From the NCBI GenBank assembly GCA_005882115.1, contig VBEG01000026.1:1-60902 (forward strand): a DNA stretch of 60,902 nucleotides. Reading direction: 5' to 3'. This DNA is from Chloroflexota bacterium (GTDB lineage Bacteria > Chloroflexota > Dormibacteria > Dormibacterales > Dormibacteraceae). The notes beneath the pieces were generated by a model. That model was given only the letters and a program-made list of their open reading frames with translations, made no database searches and was not told the DNA's origin. Numbering within the stretch: the stretch's first letter is position 1; every line of letters begins with the position of its first letter. The translations under genes and the position numbers were made by a program. Of the stretch, positions 3,934-60,902 are shown in pieces.

Positions 3934-4007
3934 CGCGACGACTCCATGGCGCTTTCCGTCGCGATTTTCGAGCATGACCGGTGAAGTTGAAGCGCGCCAG
4001 TTTTGTA

Positions 4008-4141
4008 CAGCAACGTCCATGGCAAACCGCGATATTTCGCGGCACGTGGCGGCACTCAGCGAATTCGGACTGCGATTTCTGAACGGCGGCGGCGATCTGT
4101 TAACCGCAAGGTTCAGGATTCGAGTCCCTGTCCCGGAGCCA
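4008..4141 (+). repeat. tRNA-Asn-like dispersed repeat, copy A
   Basis: About 134 bp between the ATPase gene and the nitrilase gene. It begins CAGCAACG, carries CACTCAGCGAATTCGG in the middle, then ATTTCTGAACGGCGGCGGCG, and ends CTGTTAACCGCAAGGTTC..TTCGAGTC..CCCGGAGCCA. The last ~60 bases look like the anticodon arm (GTT), T-arm and acceptor 3' strand of a tRNA-Asn with encoded CCA. The 5' tRNA half does not pair, so it is not a functional tRNA. The same unit recurs near 34371, 38398, 45000 and 60018 in the same orientation. The remaining bases of 3934-4170 hold nothing else I can name. Confidence 0.7.
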
Positions 4142-4170
4142 AATTCGGTCGGCCGCGTGCGCGGCCGTTC

Positions 4171-34056: not shown

Positions 34057-34370
34057 CCGGCTAACGATTCATCGACGTGCACGTCTGCCCGCGGTAGGCG
34101 AGGCGGCGTGGCAGCCGAGAAACGCGCGCATCAATGGGCTGGCGCTGTTGCTATGGGCAGTCACCGTTCGCGGTGGCCACGCCCGACGTTACAGACGGCG
34201 AGCCTGCGACGCAATGGTGGTCGTGAGGTAGCCAGGTACTCGAATTGCAGCTTGACCAAAGGCGTTCGCGTCACTCAGCCCGCCGCGCCGTCTCACCTCG
34301 CTCGGGCTCCATACCTCCAGTAATGTCGCCATCCGTCTCCGCGCGCCTTCTTGACAATCGCCGGTCCATT
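34057..34370. other. Non-coding stretch before repeat copy B
   Basis: No gene with coding character is visible on either strand; the short open frames lack ribosome sites and family motifs. The segment joins the end of the hydroxylase operon to repeat copy B. The bases after the repeat (34504-34632) also carry nothing I can name except a second partial repeat end (ACCGGAGCCAAA, 34511-34522). Confidence 0.5.
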
Positions 34371-34503
34371 GCAGCAACGCTGGCAGCAAGCGGTGCAATT
34401 GGCGTCACTCGACGGCACCCAGCGAATTCAGACCACCATGCCTGAACGGGTCGCAGCCGTATGTCAACCGCAAGGTTCAAGGTTCGAATCCCTGCTCCGC
34501 AGA
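34371..34503 (+). repeat. tRNA-Asn-like dispersed repeat, copy B (diverged)
   Basis: Starts GCAGCAACGCTGG, has GGCACCCAGCGAATTCAG in the middle and CAACCGCAAGGTTCAAGG then TTCGAATCCCTG at the 3' end, so the order of blocks matches the other copies. The anticodon-loop GTTAA reads GTCAA and the acceptor end is altered (CTCCGCAGACA). Its 5' half is closest to the truncated copy at 60018. It separates the large catabolic region from the acyl-CoA module. Confidence 0.6.
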
Positions 34504-34632
34504 CACTCTGGACCGGAGCCAAAGGTCGATCTCAATGCGGCTTTCTGAGCTACAGAGCCTCGTCGGGTGACAGCTCGACGCCAGACGAGGCTCACGCCAA
34601 CGCTCGCTGCGCTCGCGCGAAACCAACGTGGC

Positions 34633-38340: not shown

Positions 38341-38397
38341 CTTCCAGAAGAGCTCCGATACGCCGGGCAGGAGCGCGGGAAGTGGGGCCCTGCTCTA

Positions 38398-38534
38398 GCA
38401 GCAACGCCGGCGCTAAACCATGGCAAACGGCGGCACTCAGCGGTGCTCAGCGAATTCGCGGCGCTATTTCTGAACGGGGTTCAGCGATCTGTTAACCGCA
38501 AGGTTCAGGGGTTCGAGTCCCTGTCCCGGAGCCA
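38398..38534 (+). repeat. tRNA-Asn-like dispersed repeat, copy C
   Basis: About 137 bp after the CoA-transferase gene. Blocks in order are CAGCAACGCCGG, ATGGCAAACGGCGGCACTCA, CTCAGCGAATTCG, ATTTCTGAACGG, CTGTTAACCGCAAGGTTC, GTTCGAGTCCCTGTCCCGGAGCCA split by one base change from copy A. The tRNA-like 3' half has a GTT anticodon loop, a T-loop TTCGAGT and an encoded CCA. The 5' half does not fold with it. The 148 bases that follow (38535-38682) are non-coding. Confidence 0.7.
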
Positions 38535-38682
38535 ATCTGAATTCAGTCTGAGGAGCGACCCCTGGCATTGCGAAGGCCCAGGCTTGACTTGACGCTTTGG
38601 CCGGCTCTAGGACGGGATTGACCGCCACATTCGCGCGCCGCAGCGCTGCCCAATAACCGAACGTTGCAGGCAGCCGCGAAAA

Positions 38683-44999: not shown

Positions 45000-45131
45000 C
45001 AACGCCGATGGCAAACCGCAGGACTTGGCGTTACGCAGCGGCACTTAGCGAATTGGGCCCGGGATTTCTGAACCGGCGGTGGCGATCTGTTAACCGCAAG
45101 GTTCGGAGTTCGAATCTCCGTCCCGGAGCCA
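45000..45131 (+). repeat. tRNA-Asn-like dispersed repeat, copy D (best tRNA-like 3' half)
   Basis: ACAACGCCGATGGCAAACCG, GCGGCACTTAGCGAATTGG, ATTTCTGAACCGGCGG, CTGTTAACCGCAAGGTTC, then CGGAG-TTCGAAT-CTCCG, a perfect 5-bp T-arm, and TCCCGGAGCCA. CCCGGGA at 45058-45064 pairs with six of seven acceptor bases, giving a 74-base unit 45058-45131 of tRNA size with anticodon loop CTGTTAA (Asn). The D-arm and anticodon stem do not pair well, so I regard it as a decayed tRNA-Asn or tRNA-derived element rather than a working gene. Confidence 0.7.
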
Positions 45132-57198: not shown

Positions 57199-57444
57199 TG
57201 CTTGGTCGAACCCGGTACCGATGGACTGTGTTCCTCGATATATATCGCCCGGGGTGCTGCCGGCGCTGAGCTCCTCCCCAATCCTTCCAGTGCTGACGAA
57301 CTAGGGGTCGGCGAAACCAAATGAACTGTCCGAAACCAGCCCCAGTCGACCTAGGTGAAGATGCCGAGTTGCGTCTATGCGCCGGCGGTGGCAGAATCGG
57401 GCTCCACATGTAGTTGGTGCTGAGGCAAGAGGAGGGTGCTTGAC

Positions 57445-59238
57445 ATGGTCGCGCGCAGAATCGCGCTGGTTTTTGCTGCCGCTGCACTGGCCCTCGGTCA
57501 GTCGCTGGCAGTTGGAGTAGGGGTAGGCGCTGCCGACTCGGGCAATTACACGATTCAGGCCAGCCAACGCGTAGGAACCGCTCATCCAAGCAAGACCTGG
57601 CCGAATGTCGACTATGGGACAAGCTCGGTTGAGATCCCCAATCACCAACCGAACTCGAAGACGATCCGTCACACCTATGCCGCCGGCACACCCACTGTCG
57701 GCGTCACCGGGATAGCGAGCGGCCAGGTCGCCGGCTTCTCTGGCTTCGCAGGCCTGACTCACAAGGACCAGCGGAATGCTGGCACGGGCAGCTATGCGAA
57801 CACGCAGTTCACCCTGGAGCCGCCCGACCAGGGTCTTTGCGTGGGCAACGGCCAGGTGCTGGAGGGCGTCAATAACGCGTTCCAGGTCTTCAATACCAGT
57901 GGGACACCACTCACGGCGCCGACGGCTTACAGCGAATTCTTCGGATTCGCTCCGGAGATCATCCGAACTAACCCACTCGTGTTCGGCGACTTCGTCAGCG
58001 ACCCAAGGTGTTACTTCGACCCGGATACGCAGCGTTGGTTCATGACTGAGCTGCAAATCTCGACCGACCCGACGACCGGCAACGTCAAGGCGCCAACCAA
58101 CCTAGTCGTTGCCGTCTCCGCGAGTAGCGACGCCTCTTCGACCTGGACCGTATATGAGATTCCGACCACCGACGACGGCAGTGGCGGCACGCAAACTCAC
58201 AGTGGCTGCCCCTGCTTCGGTGACCAGCCGCTGGTCGGCGCCGACGCCAACGGCTTTTACGTGGAAACCGGTGAGTACGCGCTCAGTACCTCCGCGTTCA
58301 ACGGAGCCCAGGTCTACGCCTTCTCAAAGGTTGGCCTCGAACTCGGCACTAATACTTCAGCCGTGCACATCAACGCCGGCCCCTTCACCGAGCCCGCATT
58401 CGGGGCCCCGGCCTTTGACCTCCAACCGGCGACCTCGCCGAATGGCGGGTATCAGACCGCCAGCAACGGCACAGAGTACTTCCTGAGCAGCCTCGACCTG
58501 GGTGCGGGACCGGCCCTTGGGACGCGGGCAAGCCAGCTCGGGCTCTGGCGCCTGACCAACACTGCCTCGCTAGCCAGCGGCAGCCCCAACCTCACGTTGT
58601 CGTTCACAGCTGTGGACAGCGAGACCTACAGCCAGCCGCCCAACGCCACTCAAAAGAAGGGCCCGCTCTACCTGGGCGCCATCGTCAAGAGCCCCGAAGG
58701 CCTGGTATCGGCCAATGAGGACCGTCTCCAGCAGGTGGTCTTCGCGGACGGCAAGCTCTGGTCAGCGATCGAGACTGCAGTTAAGCAGCCGAACGGAGCC
58801 ACCCTGTCCGGGATCGCGTGGTTTGTCGTCAACCCCTCGAACGGCACGGTCTCGCATCAGGGCTACCTGGCCACGGCGGGCCAGAACCTGCTCTTTCCGT
58901 CCATCGGGGTGACCGGCTCCGGCAAGGCTGTGATGGCGTTCTCTCTGGTCGGCCCCGATTTCTTCCCGAGCGCTGCGTACACGATCCTCGATCCGGCTAC
59001 CGGCCCGGGCGCCATTCACATCGCCGCCGTGGGGCTCTTCCCGGATGATGGCTTCACCCAGTACCCAAAGGTGGGCGGAGGAAGCGGCGTCGGCCGCTGG
59101 GGTGACTACTCGGCCGCTGTGGCCGACACTTCCGGCAACGTCTGGATGGCGAACGAGTTCATCCACGACTTGCTGCCGCCGGCGCGGACGCTCTTCGCCA
59201 ACTGGGCAACCTTCATCTCCAAGGTACCCGCTAGTTAG
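57445..59238 (+). CDS. Large secreted protein, probably beta-propeller
   Basis: 597 aa from ATG 57445 with GGAGG nine bases upstream (GTG 57436 is possible). Signal peptide MVARRIALVFAAAALALGQSLAVGVGVGA. The mature part is rich in Gly, Thr, Ser and Asn with many short beta segments: PPDQGLCVGNGQVLEGVNNAFQVF, SDPRCYFDPDTQRWFMTELQ, GDQPLVGADANGFYVETGEY, and VGRWGDYSAAVADTSGNVWMANEF near the end. These look like repeated propeller blades with Asp-rich turns. No enzyme motif is visible. It probably acts outside the cell or in the envelope. A strong hairpin follows the stop. Confidence 0.75.
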   Translation: MVARRIALVFAAAALALGQSLAVGVGVGAADSGNYTIQASQRVGTAHPSKTWPNVDYGTSSVEIPNHQPNSKTIRHTYAAGTPTVGVTGIASGQVAGFSGFAGLTHKDQRNAGTGSYANTQFTLEPPDQGLCVGNGQVLEGVNNAFQVFNTSGTPLTAPTAYSEFFGFAPEIIRTNPLVFGDFVSDPRCYFDPDTQRWFMTELQISTDPTTGNVKAPTNLVVAVSASSDASSTWTVYEIPTTDDGSGGTQTHSGCPCFGDQPLVGADANGFYVETGEYALSTSAFNGAQVYAFSKVGLELGTNTSAVHINAGPFTEPAFGAPAFDLQPATSPNGGYQTASNGTEYFLSSLDLGAGPALGTRASQLGLWRLTNTASLASGSPNLTLSFTAVDSETYSQPPNATQKKGPLYLGAIVKSPEGLVSANEDRLQQVVFADGKLWSAIETAVKQPNGATLSGIAWFVVNPSNGTVSHQGYLATAGQNLLFPSIGVTGSGKAVMAFSLVGPDFFPSAAYTILDPATGPGAIHIAAVGLFPDDGFTQYPKVGGGSGVGRWGDYSAAVADTSGNVWMANEFIHDLLPPARTLFANWATFISKVPAS

Positions 59239-59253
59239 GTTGCAGCAGGCTTA

Positions 59254-59286
59254 GGGGTGTCGGCCGGCTAGCCCGGTCGGCACCCC
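59254..59286 (+). terminator. Long hairpin after the secreted protein gene
   Basis: GGGGTGTCGGCCGG (59254-59267) pairs with CCGGTCGGCACCCC (59273-59286): 14 bp with two G-U pairs around a 5-base loop, starting 16 bases after the TAG. There is no T-run, as is common in G+C-rich genomes. Confidence 0.6.
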
Positions 59287-59401
59287 GCGGGTGGATCAGC
59301 GACCGGCACCTCCGCAGCGGGGCCTCAGAACTAGGACCGGCGAAGGGATTACTTAGGTCATCCGATTGAGAAACCTGACGAAGCCTATGACAGCGTTTCA
59401 G

Positions 59402-59956
59402 TTCGTCACTCTTGGGGCTGGCGTGGCAGCACAGGACCAGACCTAGTGGACTCAACTCGATTTCGAGAGATGGCTCGAAACTGCCTAGGAAATCACGATG
59501 AACTCGCCGGAGCCGGCCCGCCGACCACGTGTCCACGGGTTCCGCTGATTCTCGGGTGCCATCGAAGATCTCGACCATGAATCGATCTGCGTTGCCCCGA
59601 AAATCATCACGCCTGGCACACCCGATGAAGTGATCGCGGCTGTTCTGGCATCCACTCCCGCCAGCCTCGTGGTGGCCGGTCACACTCACATGCAATTCGA
59701 CAGAGTTGTCGCAGGCCGACGGATGGTCAATGCGGGTAGCGTCGGAATGCCATACGCTCGACGACCTGGCGCTTACTGGGTCTTAATCGGTCCGGACGTC
59801 GAACTCCGGCGGACAACCAATGACTTCAGGGCCGCGGCCGAATCTGTGCGCCGCACTCAATATCCGGAGCGCGAAGACTTCGCGAAACATCTCGTTCGCC
59901 CGCTTGTACCGGAGGAAGCTATCCCCACTTTCGAGCGCATGGCGGGCCGAGACTGA
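59402..59956. pseudogene. Metallophosphoesterase gene scrambled by an internal inversion
   Basis: The plus strand from 59603 reads IITPGTPDEVIAAVLASTPASLVVAGHTHMQFDRVVAGRRMVNAGSVGMPYARRPGAYW and on to a stop at 59956: the C-terminal half of a YfcE-like phosphoesterase with the GHTH metal motif. The preceding part of the same protein (FRGNADRFMVEIFDG ... FLGSFEPSLEIELSPLGLVLCCHASPKSDE) is found on the minus strand from 59602 down to 59402. In family members SDE runs straight into IxTPxTP, so the ~200-bp middle part is inverted with its junction at 59602/59603. The N-terminal third (first metal motifs) is missing. Confidence 0.75.
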
Positions 59957-60017
59957 TGCCGACATGGTCAGCCGCCCCAAGCACCTGAATCAGCCGGCCG
60001 CGCCATCCCGGTTTCGT

Positions 60018-60095
60018 GCAGCAACGCCGGTGGCAAGCAGTGGGATGCAACCGCATTCAGCGGTACGCAGCGAATTCGAGTCGCTGGTTCTAAAC
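60018..60095 (+). repeat. tRNA-Asn-like dispersed repeat, copy E (3'-truncated)
   Basis: GCAGCAACGCCGGTGGCAAG, CAGCGGTACGCAGCGAATTCG and TGGTTCTAAAC match the 5' two-thirds of the repeat, closest to copy B. The tRNA-like 3' end is missing. Same orientation as the other copies. Confidence 0.6.
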
Positions 60096-60711
60096 CCATT
60101 GGCGGATCCTTTGCCGTCGCGCGGACTCTAGACAATCGCTGCATCCCTACGCGCGGGATGGAGCAGTGGGATCCACGCCGTGGGGAGGAAGTCTGCGATT
60201 CCCATGACCCTACCGAAGAGTGTCGGCGAGAGCATCGGAACGAGCGCCCGCCGCTCAAAGATGACATAGACCCAATAGCTCATTCGCAATAAGGGTGACT
60301 CCTCGGTTATGCGTGCCGACCTTGGCGAGCGTGCCTTGCATGGCCAAATTTGCGGCCCAGGTCATCAGGAGGCAGACCCGGACCGCGGGGGCGGATGGTC
60401 CGTTTGGCCCGCGATCTGGGCAAGCGGGCGTTCGACGCTTCTCACAGCCAGCCGTGTCTGCGAAACACAGTTCAGAATTGTCGGAATTTCCTGTGAGTTG
60501 GCTGTCCTGGCAAATGTGACAAGAAGGCCGACGCTTGCTTGGCCCTGCCTGCCGGATCGAACCTCAGTCGAACTCGACGGCGATGTAGCCGTATCCGTTT
60601 GCTCCGATCACCCAAGCGGTCGCGACGTAGTGGTAGGGCCGAGAATGTTTGGGCGGTAAAGATTTGTGAAGGTAGCATTTCGGCCGCCCTGCTGACGCGC
60701 CCGAGTGGCGG
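60096..60711. other. Mostly unassigned sequence
   Basis: No gene of normal size. A 51-codon minus-strand frame (60283-60128) reads MSYWVYVIFERRALVPMLSP and IADFLPTAWIPLLHPARRD, which has protein-like composition but no ribosome site; it may be a fragment. The rest shows no recognisable motif on either strand. Confidence 0.35.
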
Positions 60712-60900
60712 CTAGGACACTCCCCCCAACGCGCGAGCGGTGAAGATGAGGCGCTTGGTGGCGAAGGCTCCAGCCCAGAGTGGGTAACACGTGGTCAGCG
60801 TGAGTCTGTCGTCGCTGGTGGCGGCGAGCACAGTGCGGTCGTTTGGATCCGTAACCCTCGAACCCGTGATCTCGAAGAGGTACAACCCGTGCTGGGTGCG
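60712..60900 (-). CDS. Sortase, C-terminal part (5' end outside window)
   Basis: The minus strand from the right edge reads LYLFEITGSRVTDPNDRTVLAATSDDRLTLTTCYPLWAGAFATKRLIFTARAL and stops at TAG 60714-60712. The TLTTCYP motif holds the catalytic Cys and the Arg in ATKRLIF is the oxyanion Arg; the Asp-rich PNDRTVL strand precedes it as in class D/E sortases. The His and N-terminal membrane anchor lie beyond the window. Sortases attach proteins to the cell wall or build pili, so the organism probably has a Gram-positive or Chloroflexota-like monoderm envelope. Confidence 0.85.
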   Translation of the reverse strand, partial: RTQHGLYLFEITGSRVTDPNDRTVLAATSDDRLTLTTCYPLWAGAFATKRLIFTARALGGVS

Positions 60901-60902
60901 GA

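Follow-up and report, generated by a model that had tools for sequence, protein, structure and literature searches.

A 198-bp piece of a broken phosphoesterase gene lies reversed in place in a Dormibacteraceae genome: a possible scar of end joining

Results

Layout of the locus

The stretch of DNA analyzed here (the window) is one entire contig of 60,902 bp, C89, from a MAG bin of 147 contigs (3.36 Mb, 96.5% complete). Near its right-hand end it carries two pieces of a phosphoesterase gene on opposite strands (Table 1). The piece on the minus strand translates as RGNADRFMVEIFDG...GLVLCCHASPKSDE, and the piece on the plus strand as KIITPGTPDEVIAAVL...VVAGHTHMQF...MAGRD followed by a stop codon at 59954-59956, where the original prediction had placed it. 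The N-terminal third of the gene is gone, the next 198 bp are in place but reversed, and the C-terminal piece is unchanged.

Table 1. Features of the broken phosphoesterase gene and its surroundings
Feature	Position	Strand	Description
Upstream flank, 3' of the stop of the 600-aa gene	59239-59401		No phosphoesterase N-terminus; no Pfam match
Left joint	59401/59402		Unrelated upstream sequence meets the SDE end of the inverted piece; N-terminal third (~60 aa) expected here, missing
Inverted middle piece of the phosphoesterase	59402-59599	-	198 bp, 66 codons, RGNADR...HASPKSDE; open frame; flip join gap-free against 84/84 homologues
Right joint	59599/59600		RGN end of the inverted piece meets the C-terminal piece; no inverted repeat in common with the left joint
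C-terminal piece, in the gene's original orientation	59600-59956	+	118 codons and stop, KIITPGTP...GHTH...MAGRD; PF12850 Metallophos_2
CAP-type protein C-terminus	60564-60657	-	Last ~30 codons, truncated, one base missing (frameshift); no Pfam match
Sortase C-terminus, runs off the contig	60712-60902	-	PF04203

It had been predicted that the middle of a metallophosphoesterase lies on the minus strand and continues into its C-terminal part on the plus strand, and this is the arrangement found. The inverted segment had been given as 59402-59602; the inversion stands but the end does not, as the true end is 59599 and 59602 lies three bases too far. The AAA at 59600-59602 is the K codon in SDE-K-IITPG, which fills a column present in the homologues, and is therefore part of the C-terminal piece; read from the opposite strand, the same AAA supplies the leading F of 'FRGNADR'. 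When the 198 bp are reversed, the two pieces make 184 uninterrupted codons, i.e. RGNADR...HASPKSDE running directly into KIITPGTP...GHTH. A minus-strand frame at 59231-59695 is open for 154 codons and spans both joints of the flipped piece, so that automatic annotation may call a false chimeric protein at this place.

Several other elements lie in the window. A probably secreted protein of 600 aa (57436-59238), without a Pfam match, has relatives in 16 of the 41 genomes searched including its own, several of which gave more than one match. An interspersed repeat of ~150 bp occurs on the plus strand at 3997-4142, 34370-34510, 38390-38546 and 45000-45131, with its 5' part only at 60018-60095. 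It occupies ten places in the genome including the query copy; over the part that matched, the other nine are 73-90% alike. At the end of each of the four fuller copies in the window is a stretch like CTGTTAACCGCAAGGTTC...GTTCGAGTCCCTGTCCCGGAGCCA, which resembles part of a tRNA-Asn (its anticodon, T and acceptor portions); neither ARAGORN nor Rfam called a tRNA in the copies. The element could be a tRNA-derived repeat.

Downstream of the phosphoesterase, the short fragment that we take to be the end of a CAP-domain protein follows the sortase C-terminus on the same strand. We considered a second inversion at this fragment, ~1 kb downstream of the first, and dropped it. Among the 110 class genomes searched, relatives carry the CAP/sortase pair in both orientations, i.e. 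tail to tail in the nearest relative (G005:C37) and in G023:C14, and on the same strand in G030:C52, so a plain deletion in a same-strand pair suffices.

The flipped protein is a predicted phosphoesterase lacking its N-terminus

When the middle and C-terminal pieces were searched separately, each recovered the same phosphoesterase family. The C-terminal piece scores 28.4 bits against Pfam PF12850 (Metallophos_2; cut-off 27), and the flipped protein covers a longer stretch of this profile (positions 85-148 rather than 101-148). Aligned with 84 homologues, the inverted piece has the middle motifs RGNxDR and CHxxP, as RGNADR and CCHASP, and the C-terminal GHxH metal motif is present as GHTH (residue 93 once the segment is flipped). 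This homologue set leaves out the window loci L001 and L003, the loci L022, L023, L024 and L092, duplicates (judged over the first 100 residues of the match) and loci not reaching a tblastn E of 1e-10.

The check proposed with the original prediction was to flip the segment in silico and align its translation with intact homologues. Over the 18 residues on either side of the joint, all 84 aligned homologues are free of gaps, which supports a clean inversion. The homologue consensus at the joint is mostly P-R-[SN]-D-x-x-[IVM]-x-T, and the flipped protein reads SPKSDEKIIT. At 45 columns conserved in at least 90% of the homologues, in an alignment without the K, the flipped protein departs at 7 and the homologues at 1.7 on average (95th percentile 4.85), a comparison that is lenient to the homologues because close relatives are among them. 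Trees of the two pieces (83 rows after drops, window protein included) have L033 and L038 among the nearest rows in both, with weak tree support. The match between the pieces is thus more than chance, since each alone finds the same family and these near neighbours are common to both trees. By its motifs and alignment, the joined product is of the YfcE/Metallophos_2 type and would lack only the first ~60 residues. It resembles YfcE-like calcineurin-type phosphoesterases in its above-cut-off C-terminal piece and gap-free joint, and differs from them in having lost the N-terminal third and in having the middle third on the other strand.

In intact homologues this part of the protein is preceded by ~60 further residues, among them the motifs DIHGN and GGD/CGD. 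The first metal-binding motifs of the family, DxH and GD, lie in this N-terminal part. We found neither motif's region in the window: a profile of 96 homologue N-termini gave no match in any frame (best E 2.3). Searching the genome itself with the consensus N-terminus returned only a paralogue on contig C100 (85% identity to the consensus) and three weak matches (E 0.017 to 0.34), so the predicted loss of the N-terminal third holds. Because the first metal-binding motifs were in the lost part, the product cannot work as an enzyme and the gene is dead. Both pieces are free of stops and frameshifts, so the event is probably not old and the gene is probably a recent pseudogene. At third codon positions the two pieces have GC contents of 0.64 and 0.62, whereas six intact window genes range from 0.76 to 0.81. 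This fits relaxed selection on the gene, or its acquisition from another source.

Relatives of the broken gene

The genome has one intact homologue, the paralogue on C100, which is 48-49% identical. Among the other genomes of the genus, 15 of 16 gave a match (partial only in G002) and G015 gave none. In the search of 110 class genomes, 23 including the genome itself matched at E 1e-30 or better, with 44-49% identity outside the window, and among the best 80 of 151 relatives in a GTDB species scan identity was at most 48%. We read the broken gene as an accessory copy, distinct from the copy of the genus type that is intact on C100. An intact allele, which the original prediction had suggested seeking, was not found, nor was a close orthologue, in the genome itself and 60 relatives (61 genomes), the 110 class genomes or the best 80 of the 151 GTDB relatives. 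The ancestral sequence at the joints is consequently inferred from homologues that are only ~50% identical.

Breakpoints

To the resolution that the homologues allow, nothing was lost or doubled between the middle and C-terminal pieces at the right joint. At neither joint did a comparison by eye of the sides that can be measured, i.e. those other than the lost N-terminal one, show bases in common. The original prediction saw no obvious inverted repeats flanking the segment, and we obtained the same result by scoring: the best inverted match around the breakpoints scores 6, which is the median of 400 random window pairs, 64.5% of which reach at least 6. The only match is of 5 bp (GGGGC/GCCCC) and is off centre. 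A site-specific or repeat-mediated inversion is not supported, as the best inverted match equals the median of the random pairs. No Rfam match to an RNA element was found at E up to 1 within 59200-60902. The original observation is confirmed, and its interpretation as a clean inversion with loss of the N-terminal third is supported.

End-joining genes in the genome

The genome encodes a Ku protein (PF02735, 158.6 bits) whose gene adjoins one for an ATP-dependent ligase (PF01068/PF04679) on contig C25 (L206, 2198-4106). A second Ku gene is represented by its start only, being cut by the end of contig C80 (L207, 2188-2577).

Discussion

We favour a single deletion-plus-inversion event made by end joining, a reading to which we give about half of our confidence. 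On this account the gene would have been cut at three points, the N-terminal stretch would have been lost, and the freed 198-bp fragment would have been rejoined backwards by end joining needing little or no homology, with the genome's own Ku and ATP-dependent ligase as plausible agents. A fragment that is cut out and flipped automatically leaves a single clean cut, without loss or duplication of residues. Such a cut is common to the middle and C-terminal pieces, and a single event accounts for it better than two unrelated events would. We therefore infer a single break-and-repair event. The more specific proposal, that the locus is a natural record of cutting, flipping and re-ligation, in which the Ku and ligase of an uncultured soil lineage joined the ends and left a clean cut on the C-terminal side and no repeats, is put forward tentatively, and we would not be surprised to see it fail. 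The presence of Ku does not show that Ku acted at this locus, although the scar may plausibly have been made by it.

The closest laboratory parallel that we found is a set of repair scars in Streptomyces ambofaciens, in which induced breaks were rejoined with deletions and 1-6 nt of homology was present at the joints in half of the scars (PMC5869714). Three clones had captured fragments of 30, 42 and 83 bp in the scar, two of them from nearby. The likeness would lie in a deletion whose joint has little if any homology and in small local fragments being caught. The window scar differs in being natural and undated, and its fragment is in place and reversed, whereas the Streptomyces scars considered here record captured fragments and not a fragment flipped in place (PMC5869714).

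The main rival to end joining is replication template switching (fork stalling or microhomology-mediated break-induced replication), which we consider unlikely while giving it serious weight. Here the polymerase would leave the upstream flank, copy 198 bp from the opposite strand and return where the C-terminal piece begins, leaving out the N-terminus, so that a local inversion with an adjacent deletion would be an expected product; its return at the exact base where copying began would, however, be a coincidence. Both template switching and microhomology-mediated break-induced replication are discussed for primate microinversions of 17-33 nt (PMC8755829). The primate events are likewise short reverse-complemented segments with clean ends, but they are flanked by inverted repeats, and the window segment has none above chance, is 198 bp long and has an adjacent deletion (PMC8755829). 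If instead the N-terminus had been lost by a simple deletion and the middle had been inverted at another time, the end points of the two events would have to coincide, as there are zero foreign bases between the inverted and C-terminal pieces; dead genes do gather deletions and rearrangements, and the adjacent CAP-protein remnant is truncated too, but we judge this sequence of events improbable. An assembly or library artefact, with the real gene intact, seems to us just as improbable. Such an error would be favoured by the position of the feature, ~1 kb from the contig end, the window being one entire contig of a 147-contig MAG, but both joints are without repeats able to mislead an assembler, and the real N-terminus should then be in the assembly, where only that of the paralogue is found. 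The low third-position GC fits a gene that is no longer maintained or was acquired recently, and a mis-assembly must explain this value in both pieces as well as the missing N-terminus.

A join of pieces from two related genes could be read from the correlation of -0.30 between the per-homologue identities of the middle and C-terminal pieces. When the homologues were used as their own controls, a correlation as low as this occurred in 1 of 84, and in 7 of 84 with distant partners only. We treat it as probably noise, the trees of the two pieces having the near neighbours L033 and L038 in common, with poor support. Finally, Chanin et al. reportedly described intragenic invertons in bacteria in 2024, and the window locus is like these in having an inverted segment within a gene. 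It differs in having no flanking inverted repeats above chance and in not being reversible to a working gene, as with the N-terminus lost neither orientation encodes the whole protein. Phase variation is rejected on these two grounds, and we attach next to no probability to a programmed reversible inversion.

With end joining as the favoured reading, the locus clearly exemplifies a familiar type of gene damage. It is most likely a scar left by the repair of a DNA break, and is unusually easy to read. Because the two pieces of the dead gene still align to dozens of homologues, one breakpoint is closely fixed. Short repeat-free inversions are otherwise hard to spot, as an annotator sees only two unrelated fragments. 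In the literature searched, we found no earlier report of a bacterial pseudogene with a short inversion free of repeats, which is no proof of absence. The locus is one data point on inversions without repeats in bacteria that have Ku, and a single case settles nothing on mechanism. With a large collection of such scars, comparing how frequent they are in the presence and absence of Ku would test whether end joining in bacteria flips fragments in nature, and if the flip was indeed made by Ku and ligase, scar counts across Ku-bearing and Ku-less lineages could measure how often end joining reshapes bacterial genomes.
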